Below, in pieces: positions 4,588-21,665 of a DNA stretch of 21,665 nucleotides. A program made the translations under genes and the position numbers. The notes under the pieces are model-generated. The model saw only the letters and a program-made list of their open reading frames with translations, did no database searches and was not told where the DNA came from. Source of the stretch: a virus. Within the stretch, counting starts at the first letter, position 1. Every line of letters starts with the position of its first letter. The stretch spans positions 1 to 21,665 of IMG/VR virus record IMGVR_UViG_3300008110_002223; one strand, given 5' to 3'.

Positions 4588-4668
4588 ATGGCTTTTCAAC
4601 TATCACCAGGTGTGAATGTCTCAGAAGTTGATTTTATGCAAATGACATTCGTGTGGTTCGTTCAGTAG
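4588..4668 (+). CDS. 18: N-terminal fragment of the tail sheath gene 18, out of frame with the rest
   Basis: ATG 4588 with a good AGGAGA site gives MAFQLSPGVNVSEVD, the conserved start of marine gp18 sheaths. It then reads FMQMTFVWFVQ and stops at 4666-4668. The body of the sheath continues in another frame, where the DNA from 4632 reads FYANDIRVVRSVG. In intact sheaths I remember about 60-70 residues (a TSTG-type region and the following strand/helix unit) between VSEVD and the ANDIRVVR-like strand. Here those bases are absent, not merely shifted. The junction lies within about 4627-4640, around a short TTTTA. This is the true translational start of the damaged gene. Confidence 0.85.
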   Translation: MAFQLSPGVNVSEVDFMQMTFVWFVQ

Positions 4669-6560
4669 GATCAACCGCAAATAATGCTACAGTGGATGCA
4701 GCAGGTATTTCCATCAAAAATAAAACAGATTATGAAGAACAGTTTCCTATTGCGGAAAATGTATTCGATGCAGGAAGTTACCCTAGAGTTTTTGCTGCCA
4801 AATATCCAGGCGCATTAGGTAATGCCTTAAGAGTTTCTATGTGTGATGCAAATACAACTATACTTTCTACCTGGACATATAGAGATGAATTTAGTGCAAA
4901 TGCATCAAACTCAGCTTTTGCTGTTACAAAAGGTATTAGTAAAGATGAAATTCATATTGTTGTTGTAGATAGAACAGGAGCAATTTCTGGAACAGAAGGA
5001 ACAGTTTTAGAAAAATTTGGTTTTGCTTCCAAATTAAAAGATGCCAAAAATGAAGATGGAACTTCAAACTATTATGTTGATGTTTTAAACAGTAGATCAA
5101 AGTATATTTGGTGGCTAAGCCATCCAATAGTAACTACAAATTGGGGTAGAACTTCTTCTAATTTGTTAGATGATTCAAATTTTATTAGTGCTAATAAACA
5201 GTTGGATGCACTTACATCCACAACATTTGATTTGTCTGGAGGAACAGACGTAGAACCAACTGCTGGAAATAGAAATTCTTCATATGACCTTTTTGATAAC
5301 CCAGATTCAGTTGATGTTTCATTATTAATGACCGGAGAAACTGTTGGTGATACAATACCAGACCATTTAATTTCAATGGCAGAAAATAGAAAAGATGTTT
5401 TGGTTTTCATATCTCCCGAACAATCAGATTGTGTAAATAATTCAGGTAGTGAGGTTACTGATATAAGAACTTTAAGGGATACTATAACGTCATCTTCTTT
5501 TGCTGTTATGGATTCTGGATGGAAATATCAGTACGATAAGTATAATGACGTTTATCGTTGGATTCCTTTAAATGGAGATGTTGCTGGACTATGTGCTAGA
5601 ACTGATATCGAAAGAGATCCTTGGTTCTCACCAGCAGGATTTAACAGAGGTCAAATTAAGAACGTTGTTAAACTTGCTTGGAATCCAACCAAAGCTGAAA
5701 GGGACAGTTTATATAAAATGGGTATCAACCCAGTAGTTACATTCCCTGGTGAAGGCACCGTATTATATGGTGATAAGACCTTATTGTCAAGACCTTCTGC
5801 ATTTGATCGTATCAATGTTCGCCGCCTATTCATTGTTTTAGAGAAAGCGATTGCGAGAGCATCTCGTTCATCGTTGTTTGAATTTAACGATGAATTTACA
5901 AGAGCTCAATTTGTAAATCTTGTAGAACCATTCTTACGTGATGTACAAGGTCGCCGTGGTATTTACGACTACCGTGTTGTATGTGATACTACAAATAATA
6001 CACCAGAAGTTATTGATCGTAACGAGATTAACGAATTCCGCTCTCAAATGCAAGGAGACGGCGCACGCCCAAATTTATTTGAGGTTAGCATGCCGTTCCC
6101 TTCGTTTTCATTGCCAGGAAACGCACAAACAAAATTAACATTCATGTGTAAAACTGCACAATTACCAGGGTCAACTCTTGGTATTGTGCCTGTTCAATAT
6201 TTTGGACGTGAATTAAAATTTGTAGGCAATAGAACATTTGCAGATTGGACAATCACAGTTATTAACGATGAAGATTTTATCATTCGTAATGCTTTCGAAC
6301 GTTGGATGAATGGCATTAATAGTCATAGTCTAAACGTGAGAACACCTTTAGCACAATCACCATTAGGATATACTGTAGATGGAGAAGTTACACAGTATGC
6401 TAAAAATGGCGATTCATTAAAGAAATATAAATTTATCGGTCTTTTTCCGACAGATATTACTCCAATTGATGTTGACTGGGGTGCTAATGATACGATTGAG
6501 GAGTTTTCAGTGACCCTTACCTATCAATGGTGGGAGTCAATTGCAGACAACGTGGTTTGA
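4653..6560 (+). CDS. 18: Tail sheath body (gp18) fused in frame to tail tube (gp19); both sheath ends incomplete
   Basis: A single frame holds most of the contractile sheath protein followed directly by the tube protein. The nominal start at 4653 is a GTG inside the conserved strand DIRVVRSVG and has no ribosome site; the frame is open from 4632. Sheath landmarks are FAAKYPGALGNALRVSMCDA, IERDPWFSPAGFNRG, FPGEGTVLYGDKT, FDRINVRRLF, FEFNDEFTRAQFV and VVCDTTNNTPEVIDRNE (to about residue 458). In T4 and marine gp18 that last motif is followed by about 40 more residues (FVA..Y..PARSI-type strands) that link neighbouring subunits. Here the next residues are INEFRSQMQGDGARPNLFEV, the start of gp19. 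As written, the product would lack both sheath linker regions and tether a tube to each subunit, so a working virion seems unlikely. Confidence 0.85.
   Translation: MVRSVGSTANNATVDAAGISIKNKTDYEEQFPIAENVFDAGSYPRVFAAKYPGALGNALRVSMCDANTTILSTWTYRDEFSANASNSAFAVTKGISKDEIHIVVVDRTGAISGTEGTVLEKFGFASKLKDAKNEDGTSNYYVDVLNSRSKYIWWLSHPIVTTNWGRTSSNLLDDSNFISANKQLDALTSTTFDLSGGTDVEPTAGNRNSSYDLFDNPDSVDVSLLMTGETVGDTIPDHLISMAENRKDVLVFISPEQSDCVNNSGSEVTDIRTLRDTITSSSFAVMDSGWKYQYDKYNDVYRWIPLNGDVAGLCARTDIERDPWFSPAGFNRGQIKNVVKLAWNPTKAERDSLYKMGINPVVTFPGEGTVLYGDKTLLSRPSAFDRINVRRLFIVLEKAIARASRSSLFEFNDEFTRAQFVNLVEPFLRDVQGRRGIYDYRVVCDTTNNTPEVIDRNEINEFRSQMQGDGARPNLFEVSMPFPSFSLPGNAQTKLTFMCKTAQLPGSTLGIVPVQYFGRELKFVGNRTFADWTITVINDEDFIIRNAFERWMNGINSHSLNVRTPLAQSPLGYTVDGEVTQYAKNGDSLKKYKFIGLFPTDITPIDVDWGANDTIEEFSVTLTYQWWESIADNVV
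6027..6560 (+). other. 19: Tail tube protein (gp19) portion of the fusion
   Basis: These 177 codons make an almost complete T4-like tail tube subunit, which stacks in hexamers around the DNA channel inside the sheath. Visible family signatures are FRSQMQGDGARPNLFEV, FMCKTAQLPGSTLG, YFGRELKFVGNRTFADW, INDEDFIIRNAFERWMNGIN, VTQYAKNGDSLKKYKF and DWGANDTIEEFSVTLTYQWW. T4 gp19 has 163 residues, so only the first few residues, including its own start codon, seem lost. There is no ATG or ribosome site near 6027, so it cannot be translated separately. It ends just before a strong terminator, as expected for the end of an 18-19 transcription unit. Confidence 0.92.
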
Positions 6561-16355: not shown

Positions 16356-16886
16356 ATGGCTAAATCGAATCACTACATTAATAACGCAGACTTTCTTGCA
16401 GCACTGGTACAATACCATAAAGATTGTGCAGATGCTAAAGAGAATAAGACAGAAGAACCTTCTATACCAAATTACATTGGAGAATGTTTTCTTAAAATTG
16501 CAGAACACCTTTCCAGAAAGCCTAATTTTATTTCTTATACTTTCCGTGATGAAATGATTGCTGATGGTATTGAAAACTGCCTAATGTATTTCCGCAACTT
16601 TGATCCGGCAAAGAGTAATAATCCATTTGCTTATTTTACTCAAATCATATATTATGCATTTCTCCGTAGAATTATGAAAGAGAAGAAACAATTATATGTG
16701 AAGTATAAGGCAACTCAACAGTTTGGATTGCTCGATGAAGGTGAAATGTATGAGGATGAAAACGGTAACATGAAACAGTTTGAACTCTATGACAATATTT
16801 CCGAATTCATACACAACTTTGAAGAAAATAAAAGAAAGAAAAAAGAAAGTAAGACTAAAGGTATAGACAACTTTGTAGAAGAATAA
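16356..16886 (+). CDS. 55: Late-transcription sigma-like factor (T4 gp55-like)
   Basis: A 176-residue homologue of gp55 (T4 185), the minimal sigma factor that directs host RNA polymerase to TATAAATA late promoters, working with the gp45 clamp and gp33 in T4. The conserved core is YIGECFLKIAEHLSRKPNFISY, FRDEMIADGIENCLMYFRNFDP and SNNPFAYFTQIIYYAFLRRI, a sigma region 2-like block (about 40-110). The C-terminus is basic and ends in KGIDNFVEE, near the hydrophobic clamp-binding tail in T4. The late-type boxes before dps, 18, 22 and the 13.26-kb gene are its likely targets. The start ATG 16356 follows a short gap with no strong ribosome site. Confidence 0.94.
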   Translation: MAKSNHYINNADFLAALVQYHKDCADAKENKTEEPSIPNYIGECFLKIAEHLSRKPNFISYTFRDEMIADGIENCLMYFRNFDPAKSNNPFAYFTQIIYYAFLRRIMKEKKQLYVKYKATQQFGLLDEGEMYEDENGNMKQFELYDNISEFIHNFEENKRKKKESKTKGIDNFVEE

Positions 16887-16889
16887 TTT

Positions 16890-17960
16890 ATGAAATTATG
16901 TATATTGGGTGATACACATTTTGGAGCAAGAGGAGATTCGTTGGATTTCCATAACTATTTCAAGAAATTTTATGATGATGTATTTTTTCCTTACCTTGTA
17001 GAAAATAAAATTAATGTAGTTGTTCAAATGGGTGATCTATTTGATAGGCGAAAGTTTATTAATTTTAATTCCCTATATCTTTCCAGAAAATACTTTTTCG
17101 ATAAACTCAAAGAGAACAACATCAACCTGTATACATTAATTGGTAATCATGATGTTGCATTTAAAAATACACTTGAGGTAAACTCACCATCACTGTTATT
17201 AAATGAATATGATAATGTTTTCCTTATAGAAGATTTTCATACAGAAAACTTTGAAGGTGTTTCGGTTGATATCGTTCCTTGGATTTGTTCCGATAATGAA
17301 GAAGAAATATTCCAAAAGATAAAGAATAGTAAATCACAAATTTGTTTTGGGCATTTTGAGATAGATGGTTTTGAAATGGATCGTGGCAATGTTCATCAAG
17401 GTGGGCTTGACAGAAAGACATTATCAAAGTATGATATAGTGTTGAGTGGACACTTTCACCATAAATCTTCTTCGGATAATATTACATATGTCGGTACTCC
17501 TTATGAAATGACCTGGTCAGATTATAATGATCCCAAAGGATTTCATATCTTTGATACCGAAACGAGAGAGATGAAATTTGTGAAGAATAATTTTTCTATC
17601 TTTCATAAAATAATGTATGATGATACGAATCATGATTTTGAATATTGGAAAGAATATGACTTTTCTAAGTATAAAGAAACATATGTAAAGTTGGTGGTGT
17701 TGAATAAACAAAATCCTTTCTTATTTGAACATGTGTTAGACAATCTATATAAGATTGGTGTAAGTGATTTATCAATCGTAGAAGATTTCAGTGATACCGT
17801 TATAGGTGACGATCAAGATATTATTGATCAGGCTGAAGATACACTTACGATTCTATCCAAATATATCGACAATCTAGAACTAGATGTTGAGAGTGATAAA
17901 TTAAAAATTGTTATGCGTGAACTTTATGTTGAAGCATTAAATACTGAGGTATCTGATTAG
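16890..17960 (+). CDS. 47: Recombination nuclease subunit (T4 gp47, Mre11-like)
   Basis: A 356-residue Mre11/SbcD-like phosphoesterase (T4 339), which with gp46 resects DNA ends for recombination-dependent replication and host DNA breakdown. Metal-binding motifs are all present: GDTHFGARG (Asp8, His10), GDLFDRR (Asp49), GNHD (Asn86-Asp88), GHF (His155) and SGHFHHK (His188, His190). The C-terminal part (about 240-356) is the capping and gp46-binding region. It starts three bases after the gene 55 stop and overlaps the gene 46 start as TAGTG, so stoichiometric coupling with gp46 is expected. No damage is seen. Confidence 0.96.
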   Translation: MKLCILGDTHFGARGDSLDFHNYFKKFYDDVFFPYLVENKINVVVQMGDLFDRRKFINFNSLYLSRKYFFDKLKENNINLYTLIGNHDVAFKNTLEVNSPSLLLNEYDNVFLIEDFHTENFEGVSVDIVPWICSDNEEEIFQKIKNSKSQICFGHFEIDGFEMDRGNVHQGGLDRKTLSKYDIVLSGHFHHKSSSDNITYVGTPYEMTWSDYNDPKGFHIFDTETREMKFVKNNFSIFHKIMYDDTNHDFEYWKEYDFSKYKETYVKLVVLNKQNPFLFEHVLDNLYKIGVSDLSIVEDFSDTVIGDDQDIIDQAEDTLTILSKYIDNLELDVESDKLKIVMRELYVEALNTEVSD

Positions 17961-19093
17961 TGATAATTTTTCGTAATATTAGATGGAAAAATTTATTAAG
18001 CACTGGTAATAGTTTTACTGAAGTCAAATTAGATAATATCAGTAATACTTTAATTGTTGGTGAAAATGGTTCAGGTAAGTCAACCTTACTTGATGCTCTT
18101 TGCTTTGCACTCTTTGGTAAAGCATTTAGAAATATCAATAAACCCAATCTAGTAAACTCTATTAATGGTAAAGAAACCGTAGTAGAAGTAGAGTTTAGTA
18201 CTAACAATAAAACGTATAAAATTATACGTGGTATTAAACCAAACATCTTTGAAATCTATTGTAATAATGAATTAATAAATCAAGAAGCTGCATCAAGAGA
18301 TTACCAAGATTACTTGGAAAGATTTGTTCTGAAAATGAACTATAAGTCTTTCACTCAGATTGTTATTTTGGGATCTGCATCATTTACACCATTCATGCAA
18401 TTATCTTCTTCTGATCGTAGAACAATCATTGAAGATTTGTTGGATATTCAAATCTTTAGCACAATGAATGGTATAGTTAAACAAAGAATTTCAACAAACA
18501 AAGAAAATATCACCGTTAAAAAGAGTGATATAGAGTTGCAGACACAAGAATACAAACTAAAGAAAGAACATTTAGATAAATTAAATCAAGATGTTGAGTC
18601 TAAGGTAAAAGAATATGAAACTGAAATACAAGTCAATAATGATACCCTTGAATCATTACACACAGAAATTCAAACATTTGCAAATACAATTTCAGAATTG
18701 CAAACAACCGTTGAACAAAAGATTGATGTCGAAAGTAAAGTTAAGAAAATCACTAAACTTGAGTCGCAAATTGAAAACAACATATCCAAATTCAACAAAG
18801 ATATTGATTTTTTCCGACATCATGATGATTGTCCAACGTGCAGACAAGCCATTGCCTTGGAGATTAAAGAAAGAGAAATTGAATCACTTACTGGAAAAGT
18901 CGAACAATCTCAGCAAGGTCTTACTGAACTTGAAACTAGACTCAATGATGAACAGACAAAATTAAATGATATACTAGAGAAACAAAAAGAGATACAGAAA
19001 CTTCAAGTTGAAGTTGCAACAAAAAATGCATCGATTACAGGTATAAACAAATACCTACAGAAATTAAAACTGGCATCAAAACTAAAATTATAA
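17960..19093 (+). CDS. 46: Recombination ATPase subunit gp46 (Rad50-like), N-terminal part; gene interrupted
   Basis: The N-terminal 370 or so residues of the Rad50/SbcC-like partner of gp47. A GTG start overlaps the gene 47 stop. It has Walker A GENGSGKS (34-41), a Q-loop region (ILGSASFTPFMQL), a first coiled-coil arm (about 170-285) and the zinc hook CPTC (291-294). The second arm runs only from about 295 to 369 (INKYLQKLK) before the frame goes to LASKLKL and stops. The frame that continues the protein, beginning TGIKTKIIKQYLP at 19069, is the other one. The second arm is thus about 45 residues shorter than the first, so bases are missing and it is not a simple one-base slip. The sum of both parts is about 516 residues, against 560 in T4. 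Confidence 0.9.
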   Translation: MIIFRNIRWKNLLSTGNSFTEVKLDNISNTLIVGENGSGKSTLLDALCFALFGKAFRNINKPNLVNSINGKETVVEVEFSTNNKTYKIIRGIKPNIFEIYCNNELINQEAASRDYQDYLERFVLKMNYKSFTQIVILGSASFTPFMQLSSSDRRTIIEDLLDIQIFSTMNGIVKQRISTNKENITVKKSDIELQTQEYKLKKEHLDKLNQDVESKVKEYETEIQVNNDTLESLHTEIQTFANTISELQTTVEQKIDVESKVKKITKLESQIENNISKFNKDIDFFRHHDDCPTCRQAIALEIKEREIESLTGKVEQSQQGLTELETRLNDEQTKLNDILEKQKEIQKLQVEVATKNASITGINKYLQKLKLASKLKL

Positions 19094-19119
19094 AACAGTA
19101 TTTACCTATTATCAATAAA

Positions 19120-19512
19120 TTGGTAAATAAGTATTTGTCATCATTAGATTTTTTTGTAAATTTTAATCTTGACGAATCGTTTAAAGAAACGATTAAGTCC
19201 CGCCATCGTGACGATTTTTCATATCATAACTTCTCTGAAGGTGAAAAACAGAGAATTGATATGGCATTGATGTTAACCTGGCGTGCTGTGGCTAAACTCA
19301 AGAATTCTTCGAATACCAATCTATTGATACTTGATGAAACTTTTGATTCAAGTCTAGATTCGAATGGTACAGAAGAATTGATGAAACTTCTACAGCTGTT
19401 AGAAGATGTAAACCTGTTTGTTATCTCCCACAAAGGAGATATATTGCAGGATAAATTTATGAACGTAATTAAATTTACAAAAGAAAAGAATTTTTCAAGG
19501 ATAGTCAAATGA
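19120..19512 (+). CDS. 46: gp46 (Rad50-like) C-terminal ATPase lobe, separated by a frame break
   Basis: This frame holds the second half of the gp46 ATPase: the signature FSEGEKQRIDMALM, Walker B LLILDETFDSSLD and the switch LFVISHKGD. The nominal start is TTG at 19120, but family sequence reaches back to about 19069 (TGIKTKIIKQYLPIINKLV) without a start codon or ribosome site. It is therefore the continuation of the upstream ORF, not a separate gene. Without fusion to the N-terminal Walker A lobe it could not make a normal ATPase, unless two separate chains associate, for which there is no start signal. Its stop overlaps the methyltransferase start (ATGA). Confidence 0.9.
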   Translation: MVNKYLSSLDFFVNFNLDESFKETIKSRHRDDFSYHNFSEGEKQRIDMALMLTWRAVAKLKNSSNTNLLILDETFDSSLDSNGTEELMKLLQLLEDVNLFVISHKGDILQDKFMNVIKFTKEKNFSRIVK

Positions 19513-20279
19513 ACTTTAAAGATTATTTAACGTGGTATAGGGATGTTGTAGATAAAGAAGTGGAAGGATGGTTTTATCCAATTGATATAATTATTCTATA
19601 CGGACTATTGAAAGAAACGCTAGATAAAGTAAAGGGAGATATTTGTGAAATAGGAGTTGCTTTTGGTAAAAGTGCCATAGCTTTATCTAATTTCAAAAGA
19701 AGCTCAGATACGCTCTATCTATATGATATTTTCCCAAATGAAATTTTTGAAAAGGCAAAATATAATATAAACAAATTTGGAAGTGATGAAAAGTTGGTTT
19801 GGGTAATACAAGACACTACCCAAATGAAAGAAGCCGCATTTCATACTCCTTTAAGATTATTGCACATTGATGGTTGTCACGAGCACTCGGCAGTATTAAA
19901 TGATTTGCAATTGTTTAGTCCTTATATGCATGATGCTGGAATAATAGTGCTTGACGATTTCAATGATTACGAGTATCCTGGTGTGAACAGTGCTGCCATA
20001 GAATTTAGTTTGGCAAAATATAATCATAAAAATTGGAGAGTATTTGCAATAGGTGATAATAAAGCATATATGTGCCAAAAGAAATATGTACAAATGTATC
20101 AAATTAGTTTAGCTGGATTTATGAAAAATGCCTCGCAATCAATGAATGTTCCTTTTCCACTTCCTTTAGGATTAAGAGAAATGTTGGACATTAATGTTTT
20201 AATGTGTGATTCAAGAGATGATTGGGGAGATTTAAATAATATAGCTCAAAAATTATTTGATAAACCGAAGATAGGATAA
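19509..20279 (+). CDS. Class I SAM-dependent methyltransferase-like protein
   Basis: A 256-residue protein of the Methyltransf_24/TylF-like type. Motif I is GDICEIGVAFGKSAIALS (about 43-60), followed by an acidic strand LYLYDIFPNEIF (about 69-80). Then come LLHIDGCHEHSAVLNDLQLF (Asp121, His124, His126) and GIIVLDDFNDYEYPG (Asp149, Asp150), the metal- or substrate-side motif of this family. Such enzymes often modify sugars or small molecules in surface polysaccharide or natural-product pathways; the substrate here is unknown. It is not a T4 core gene, so it is an accessory insertion between gene 46, which it overlaps by ATGA, and the deformylase. Base composition is like its neighbours, so it is not a recent arrival. 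Confidence 0.8.
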   Translation: MNFKDYLTWYRDVVDKEVEGWFYPIDIIILYGLLKETLDKVKGDICEIGVAFGKSAIALSNFKRSSDTLYLYDIFPNEIFEKAKYNINKFGSDEKLVWVIQDTTQMKEAAFHTPLRLLHIDGCHEHSAVLNDLQLFSPYMHDAGIIVLDDFNDYEYPGVNSAAIEFSLAKYNHKNWRVFAIGDNKAYMCQKKYVQMYQISLAGFMKNASQSMNVPFPLPLGLREMLDINVLMCDSRDDWGDLNNIAQKLFDKPKIG

Positions 20280-20282
20280 AAT

Positions 20283-20861
20283 ATGAGTGAAGTGCTAACA
20301 ATTAATACTGAAAGTGGTATTGTACAAGAAGAAAAGATTGAACCTTTAACTGTATTTGATGATAGACATCCTTTTCTGAATACAGAATTGCCCGAATATA
20401 CAGAACAACTACCGAATAAACGTATGACTACTTTAATTAAAAGATTGAAGATGACTATGAAACTTTATGGTGGTATAGGTCTTTCGGCTAATCAGTGTGG
20501 TTTAAAAGATCGTGTATTTGTTATGGGTACAGATCAGTTTCAGATTGCATGTATCAACCCTAAAGTTTTGGAAGTGTCTGAAGAAATTATTAAAGATGTG
20601 GAAGGTTGTCTTTCTTTTCCAGCAATGTTTATGAAAATTGAAAGACCTAAATCCGTATTTGCTGAATTTACGGATGAAAACGGACAAGTTCATCAAGAAT
20701 GGTTTGATGGTTTAACTGCAAGATGTTTCTTACATGAAACTGATCATATGAATGGTATCAAGTATACAAAGTATGTTGGTCCAGTGGCTTTAAAAATGGC
20801 CAAACAAAAACAATTGAAAAAAATTAAAACTGTGAAAAGAAAATTGAAAAATGTCGTATAG
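20283..20861 (+). CDS. def: Peptide deformylase
   Basis: A 192-residue peptide deformylase, which removes the formyl group from new proteins. All three motifs are present: GGIGLSANQ (63-71, the GxGLxAxQ box), EGCLSFP (107-113, metal ligand Cys109) and HETDHMNG (151-158, ligands His151 and His155, catalytic Glu152). There is a 45-residue N-terminal extension compared with minimal phage forms and a Lys-rich C-terminus (MAKQKQLKKIKTVKRKLK). Phage deformylases of marine viruses are thought to support the turnover of N-terminal-formylated proteins such as photosystem D1 in cyanobacterial hosts. The presence of def is consistent with a cyanobacterial host but not proof. Its 3' end overlaps the next gene by 11 bases. 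Confidence 0.95.
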   Translation: MSEVLTINTESGIVQEEKIEPLTVFDDRHPFLNTELPEYTEQLPNKRMTTLIKRLKMTMKLYGGIGLSANQCGLKDRVFVMGTDQFQIACINPKVLEVSEEIIKDVEGCLSFPAMFMKIERPKSVFAEFTDENGQVHQEWFDGLTARCFLHETDHMNGIKYTKYVGPVALKMAKQKQLKKIKTVKRKLKNVV

Positions 20862-21665
20862 TTTTGATCCTAAAGATGATGTAGAAACTCAGTGGAAAAA
20901 ATGGCAAGAACATAATCCACCAGAATCTTTTACGCATGTAGACGAAAAAGAATTGTGTGAGAAAACGATTGAAGAACTCACATATGTTTCGGCTATGGAT
21001 GTAAAAGAATATACTTTATTTCAAAAGTGGTGTGAAGTGCAAGATAAATTTCCTACAGAAATCGTAAATGATTTGTGGGAAGGTGAAAAGAAAGTACTTA
21101 AAGATGAAAAACAAAGGCGTGCAATTGAAGAAATAAAATCCAATATTTGGATGCCTAATAGTCCTGAAGATTATTTGACACTTGAACCTGAATTACTTTA
21201 CACAAGTAAACAAGATGATCTGCCAGAATTGTGGAATACCATAAGAACATTTTCTTCTACGATGAAGAATAATAGTAATATTGGACGCAATTTGAATTTT
21301 GTTGTAAGAGATAAAGTAACAAAAAAATACCTAGGTGTTATCTGTATTAGTTCAGACTTTCTTGATTTGACACCAAGAGATAATTTCATTGGGTGGTCGA
21401 GAGAATTAAAAACACAAGGTGGTATGATTAACCACACAGCCATCGGATCAACGATTGTACCTTTACAACCATTGGGATATAATTATGTTGGTGGCAAATT
21501 GCTTGCTCTGTTGTGCTTATCCGATCCTGTACAAGAGTTGTGGGAAAAACTTTACGGTGATAAGTTAGTTTCCGTAACAACTACTTCACTTTATGGAAAA
21601 ACAAAAGCAGGAGGATTATCACAATATGATAATCTAGATTATTGGCAATCGATGGGATTTACATC
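20851..21665 (+). CDS. DUF4338 (DruA-like) protein, 3' end beyond the window
   Basis: Frame 1 is open from ATG 20851, inside the end of def, to the window edge (271 codons), so the gene is incomplete here. The N-terminal 120 residues (DVETQWKKWQEHNPPESF; DLWEGEKKVLKDEKQRR) are charged and helical. From about residue 145 a conserved-looking core appears: NLNFVVRDKVTKKYLGVICI, SSDFLDLTPRDNFIGWSREL, INHTAIGSTIVPLQPLGYNY, VGGKLLALLCLSDPVQELW and KLVSVTTTSLYGKTKAGGLS. I associate the IGWS, GGKLLAL and TTTSLYGK pattern with DUF4338, the family of DruA in the Druantia anti-phage system. It is also known to me as a hypothetical protein of marine T4-like phages. A function cannot be assigned; a phage copy would more likely be a decoy, a counter-defence or an unrelated DNA-associated role than defence. 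I am moderately sure of the family. Confidence 0.6.
   Translation, partial: MSYSFDPKDDVETQWKKWQEHNPPESFTHVDEKELCEKTIEELTYVSAMDVKEYTLFQKWCEVQDKFPTEIVNDLWEGEKKVLKDEKQRRAIEEIKSNIWMPNSPEDYLTLEPELLYTSKQDDLPELWNTIRTFSSTMKNNSNIGRNLNFVVRDKVTKKYLGVICISSDFLDLTPRDNFIGWSRELKTQGGMINHTAIGSTIVPLQPLGYNYVGGKLLALLCLSDPVQELWEKLYGDKLVSVTTTSLYGKTKAGGLSQYDNLDYWQSMGFT

Follow-up and report, generated by a model that had tools for sequence, protein, structure and literature searches.

A conserved gene of the DUF4338/DruA family in T4-like Kyanoviridae evolves under strong purifying selection. Its product is more likely a DNA-working protein of the acetyltransferase fold than an anti-Druantia trick.

Identity and conservation of the gene

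The window is the whole stretch of 21,665 nucleotides analysed here, and it equals the whole viral record. An ORF opening with ATG at 20851 runs for 271 aa and meets no stop before the window end (ORF listing). Because this end cuts the gene, its 3′ part was taken from the IMG/VR relatives L002 and L025, which are 93% identical to the window protein and complete at 427 aa. The gene and its neighbours are as follows.

16356..16886, + strand: gp55-type late sigma factor, first gene of the conserved block (phrog_234, E=1.3e-60)
16890..17960, + strand: gp47 (Mre11-like) recombination nuclease subunit (PF00149, E=3.8e-11)
17960..19512, + strand: gp46 (Rad50/SbcC-like), in two frames here (PF13476, E=3.7e-17; PF02463/PF13558)
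19509..20279, + strand: class I methyltransferase-domain protein between gp46 and def (PF13578, E=3.7e-15)
20283..20861, + strand: peptide deformylase, def (PF01327, E=9.8e-36), with an 11-bp overlap with the DUF4338 start
20851..21665, + strand: DUF4338/DruA-family gene, long ('def-locus') paralogue, 5′ 271 codons (ORF, PF14236, relatives L002/L025)

The window protein matches the DruA/DUF4338 family PF14236 with E=2.3e-16 and 60.3 bits, above the Pfam cut-off of 27, and the PADLOC DruA profile with 1.6e-10. The complete L025 protein (427 aa) matches PF14236 over residues 111–359 (1.5e-20, 74 bits). The family assignment in the first-pass annotation is thus confirmed by profile search. A phmmer search of the protein against the PDB sequences gave no match.

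At least 596 IMG/VR stretches code for relatives of the window protein, and the complete long-paralogue relatives are about 425 aa long with up to 93% identity. The pairwise dN/dS between the window gene and that of L025 is about 0.05 (dN 0.063, dS 1.16). A chance ORF at 20851 was rejected on both the spread of the relatives and this ratio.

The first pass had also placed the gene in phage core-gene surroundings and overlapping def. Both statements hold, as terminase, sheath, portal, UvsW, late sigma factor, gp47 and gp46 were matched and 11 bp are shared between the DUF4338 ORF and 20283–20861.

The order of the long-copy block is gp55–gp47–gp46–(methyltransferase)–def–DUF4338–peptidase–CobS, and the gp55-gp47-gp46-def block with the long paralogue occurs in HTVC008M, Mosig and IMG/VR records. 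A def match lies directly upstream of the long paralogue at 62 of the 74 related loci; at the remaining 12 it is either absent or too divergent to be matched. In pelagimyophages, def sits in a DNA-metabolism operon (PMC7029224).

Two irregular ORFs were observed in the window. The gp46 gene is split into two frames (17960–19093 and 19120–19512) but is one 570-aa ORF in L025, L004 and L040, so the split reflects a faulty assembly or a genuine break. At 4653–6560, a single 635-aa ORF matches the tail sheath by residues 2–459 and the tail tube by residues 458–633, which are two genes in HTVC008M. This ORF is a fusion, a deletion or an assembly chimera.

Two paralogues in replication and recombination blocks

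Among the annotated phages, DUF4338 was found only in Kyanoviridae-type T4-like phages (phage search, E 0.01): the Pelagibacter phages HTVC008M and Mosig, 25 Synechococcus records, one cyanophage and two unclassified marine viruses. Relatives of T4 from both the ocean and freshwater carry it. T4 itself gave no match in the same search at E 0.01, and to our knowledge it has no DUF4338 gene. In the Synechococcus phages the gene is accessory, because only 25 records have it versus 376 with a gp44 match, and it is therefore not essential for their replication.

By family search, 8 of the 12 IMG/VR records and HTVC008M have two copies each, while Mosig and each of five cyanophages have a single one. 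The long copy of HTVC008M lies after def at 86116–87258, and its second copy lies between gp43 and uvsX at 99535–100659.

The short paralogue of about 375 aa is located in the replication cluster, and each of the 80 loci has one or more of the replication genes tested. Its nearest tested upstream gene is gp44 (48/80) or gp43 (25/80), and its nearest tested downstream gene is gp62 (48/80) or uvsX (21/80). The T4 cluster reads 45-44-62-regA-43, and it is there that the short paralogue is inserted in cyanophages and pelagiphages. In cyanophages it shares 4 bp with gp44 and/or gp62; such overlaps would be typical of translationally coupled operons.

The extreme C-terminus is almost fixed: the 74 complete long copies all end in [VI]GR (L025 residues 425–427) and the 76 complete short ones all end in IIR (L148–L227). 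This suggests a docking or processing signal. A direct clamp-binding tail was rejected, as the VGR/IIR end is unlike the NLEDFF of gp43; therefore, clamp binding via a known peptide is not indicated.

Relation to DruA and Druantia

DruA of Druantia type I (PF14236, PADLOC PDLC00002) belongs to the same Pfam family as the phage proteins. True DruA and the phage proteins share the GGKL and TTxSxxG..Y motifs in the alignment, in which the DruA-numbered residues G202, G203, K204, L205, T244, S246, G249 and Y254 are invariant. However, only the GNAT core is common to them, and their N-terminal parts are unlike.

A tree was built from 37 proteins, including the phage long and short paralogues, three phage-like cellular proteins, DruA and the NurA–HerA-linked proteins. 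The two phage paralogues and the three phage-like cellular proteins split from the DruA and NurA–HerA-linked ones with 100/100 support, while long branches meet at this phage/DruA split so that the tree depth is unsure there.

Unlike the DruA of Druantia, the phage proteins are encoded in replication/recombination blocks without a DruE-type DUF1998 gene. DUF1998 (PF09369, DruE) was found in none of the 8 phage records searched, and it was found in the positive control, a genome with true DruA. The true DruA locus L270 also has DruD. As the first pass had it, no further Druantia gene is present among the window proteins scanned. A host-derived Druantia fragment was rejected on the separate clade and the lack of partner genes.

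Among the genomes sampled from two bacterial classes, 5 of 385 in the first and 6 of 369 in the second have the family, both counts including the query genomes.

Predicted fold and motifs

The AlphaFold model of L025, made with an alignment of both paralogues, has a pLDDT of 82.5 and a pTM of 0.80. Its best solved matches are nearly all GNATs with Z of 8–10 (VIA-align of Foldseek candidates). The top match is phage Mu Mom, a GNAT-fold DNA base-modifying enzyme (8bv8, Z 9.8, 4.1 Å, 175 residues), tied with SpeG and other GNATs at Z of about 9, its lead being within the tie margin. Foldseek alone gave no match with E below 0.001, the best E being about 0.01. DUF4338 has been labelled a GNAT domain by Aravind and colleagues (PMC10853773). 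Thus, the predicted GNAT fold of the phage protein is supported, and acyl-transfer catalysis by it is plausible from the model.

Three motifs stand out in the window protein.

21466..21504, + strand: QPLGYNYVGGKLL, residues 206–218 (invariant residues in 150 phage sequences, DruA alignment, predicted secondary structure)
21577..21597, + strand: TTTSLYG, residues 243–249 (predicted strand 241–248; T244, S246 and G249 also in true DruA)
21619..21630, + strand: SQYD, residues 257–260, start of a GNAT motif-B-like segment (SQYDxLxxWxxMGFT)

The QPLGYNYVGGKLL segment makes the loop and the helix start after the strand 196–204, where GNATs have their cofactor-binding motif A. The strand-loop-helix motif of the phage proteins, QPxGxNxxGGKLL, is a variant of the usual GNAT motif. 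The canonical GNAT acyl-CoA loop is Q/RxxGxG/A, whereas DUF4338 has the non-canonical NxxGGK at that position. Because of this loop we treat catalysis as putative. The polar residues R176, N211, K216, T244, S246, Y259 and R389 are invariant in the 150 phage sequences.

The kinship with Mom is by fold only, because hhalign of the DUF4338 profile against a Mom alignment gave no signal (Prob 0.3%). The Mom residue S124, whose mutation inactivates Mom, has no clear counterpart in DUF4338, and by motif position it would correspond to a Gly. Separately, the Methylophilales phage Melnitz-3, a marine member of Kyanoviridae, has a gene whose product, deposited as DUF465, is a Mom homologue at E=7e-17 (L246 5992–6801, that is, MZ577098.1 69571–70380). 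Melnitz-3 gave no DUF4338 match in the phage search.

Cellular homologues and a clamp-like partner

A motif scan of 84,980 cellular species genomes gave 12 DUF4338 relatives, some of which are phage contigs inside bins, L228 and L229 being examples. Binning assigned these two to a Thermoplasmata archaeon, but they hold genes of T4-like phages, with two DUF4338 genes in tandem (L228 2280–4708, L229 969–3478).

Two others come from a Rhizobiales MAG (L230; 42% identity over the full protein length) and from a Polynucleobacter isolate (L231; 30%). In both, the DUF4338 gene lies tail-to-tail with a two-gene unit (L230 4989–7567, L231 4965–7640). One gene of the unit has phrog_223, the T4-type processivity factor, as its best PHROG (E=1.8e-5 and 1.6e-3), and hhalign of its product against the phage gp45 gave E=1.4e-4 and Prob 52.7%. 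On these profile matches, the partner is probably a gp45-like sliding clamp. Identity between the two clamp-like proteins is no more than 18%, yet the same arrangement is kept; the products of the other gene are 35% identical and belong to no known family. A structure predicted for the clamp-like protein from the two sequences reached a pLDDT of 35, and its profile found no match in the PDB.

Each of the two loci has a tyrosine integrase nearby, and a relationship between these integrases is detected at E=2e-20. Serine recombinase-like ORFs were also seen near islands, in L277, L278 and, by inspection, L276.

A viral scan with the Polynucleobacter homologue gave no match, a plasmid scan found nothing but a DruA in Nitrosococcus, and a search of about 1,400 sampled genomes for clamp-linked copies added none with a full-length phage-type match. 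If the clamp call is right, the pairing of DUF4338 with a clamp recurs in phages and bacterial elements.

Elsewhere, the cellular DUF4338 genes adjoin other DNA machines, NurA-HerA and DruE. A bacterial three-gene unit combines DUF4338 with a NurA-like protein and a HerA-like ATPase (L268 6555–10731; L269 3284–7400; L271 7394–11500; L272 4813–8901). The Pfam and PADLOC matches are for L271 only, and the other three were assigned by gene order and sequence similarity. We found no paper naming such a unit, and it looks like an undescribed defence-type operon.

Discussion

DruA-like structures were reported by Phold in six Synechococcus phages (PMC12774648), the one from S-PRM1 being our short paralogue. 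In the part of that report available, the likeness is structural only, and the long paralogue, the pelagiphage and freshwater spread, the synteny and the clamp link do not appear (PMC12774648). The Mosig gene is deposited as a 'DUF4338 domain-containing protein'. The first-pass view that the family is not described in phages is hence nearly right. We found no paper assigning it a phage function, but the structures of PMC12774648 and the Mosig label precede us. Likewise, no reported activity was found for DruA. In the literature searched, we saw no precedent for the layout with two paralogues or for the link to the clamp, and both appear to be new.

We tentatively propose, at a little below an even chance, that the long paralogue is a GNAT-fold protein working at replicating or recombining phage DNA with the clamp system and gp46/gp47, and most likely an acyltransferase. 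The proposal builds on the family membership, the predicted fold, the paralogue synteny, the purifying selection and the separation from DruA; from these we infer the action at DNA, the clamp link, the catalysis and the substrate. The synteny speaks for such a role indirectly. The long paralogue, embedded in replication/recombination blocks of T4-like Kyanoviridae, would work on phage DNA being replicated or recombined. Its partners would be the gp46/gp47 block and the sliding clamp with its loader. Most likely it would act as phage Mu Mom does and acylate either a base of the DNA or a protein bound to it. Of the roles listed at first pass, a DNA transaction unrelated to defence fits these blocks best, whereas inhibition or mimicry of Druantia finds no support.

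A non-catalytic accessory is rather unlikely but deserves weighing. With the GNAT fold kept but acyl transfer lost, it would bind DNA or proteins as an adaptor of the clamp loader or of gp46/gp47. The non-canonical NxxGGK loop is consistent with it, and so is the location of the family beside DNA machines as unrelated as the clamp loader, gp46/47, NurA-HerA and DruE. However, T244, S246, Y259, R176 and K216 are invariant in 150 sequences, lie in the segments making up the GNAT cleft and resemble an active or ligand-binding site.

It is improbable that the phages use the gene for defence or exclusion, with a DruA-family protein turned against rival phages or mobile elements. PF14236 does define DruA, true DruA and the NurA-HerA-linked members are in defence-like operons, and the cellular phage-type homologues are in integrase-flanked islands. 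Yet the site of the phage genes in replication/recombination blocks is conserved and core-like, unlike a variable site for cargo, and no partner defence gene is found in the window or the annotated neighbourhoods.

Very unlikely is an enzyme of translation or the protein N-terminus that works with def, for example in N-terminal acetylation after deformylation. The 11 bp shared with def and the GNAT fold of the RimI/NAT enzymes would suit it, but the short paralogue is tied to replication genes and not to def, and def itself is in a DNA-metabolism operon of pelagimyophages (PMC7029224). Moreover, true DruA and the NurA-HerA-linked relatives are not beside def, as far as the inspected ORF starts go.

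A decoy or inhibitor of the host Druantia by DruA mimicry, suggested at first pass, is scarcely credible, since family membership speaks for it but the phage clade is separate (100/100) with the GNAT core alone in common, DUF1998 is absent from the 8 phage records searched, the family is rare among the sampled bacterial genomes and a decoy needs no two long-diverged, replication-tied paralogues.

The preferred reading of an acyltransferase at phage DNA has a bolder extension, which we regard as distinctly unlikely though worth stating. DUF4338 proteins would be clamp- or replisome-coupled DNA-modifying acyltransferases that act on the T4-like marine phages' own nascent DNA and were the source of DruA and of the clamp-bearing bacterial elements.

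In summary, DUF4338 is fixed, in two copies, in the replication/recombination blocks of very abundant marine phages, which gives a testable handle on the family. If the phage copies modify DNA, phages thought to have plain DNA may not have it, and a mark on DNA may prove to be what Druantia type I senses or makes. Bacterial islands in which DUF4338 is paired with what is probably a T4-type clamp would form a novel class of element.
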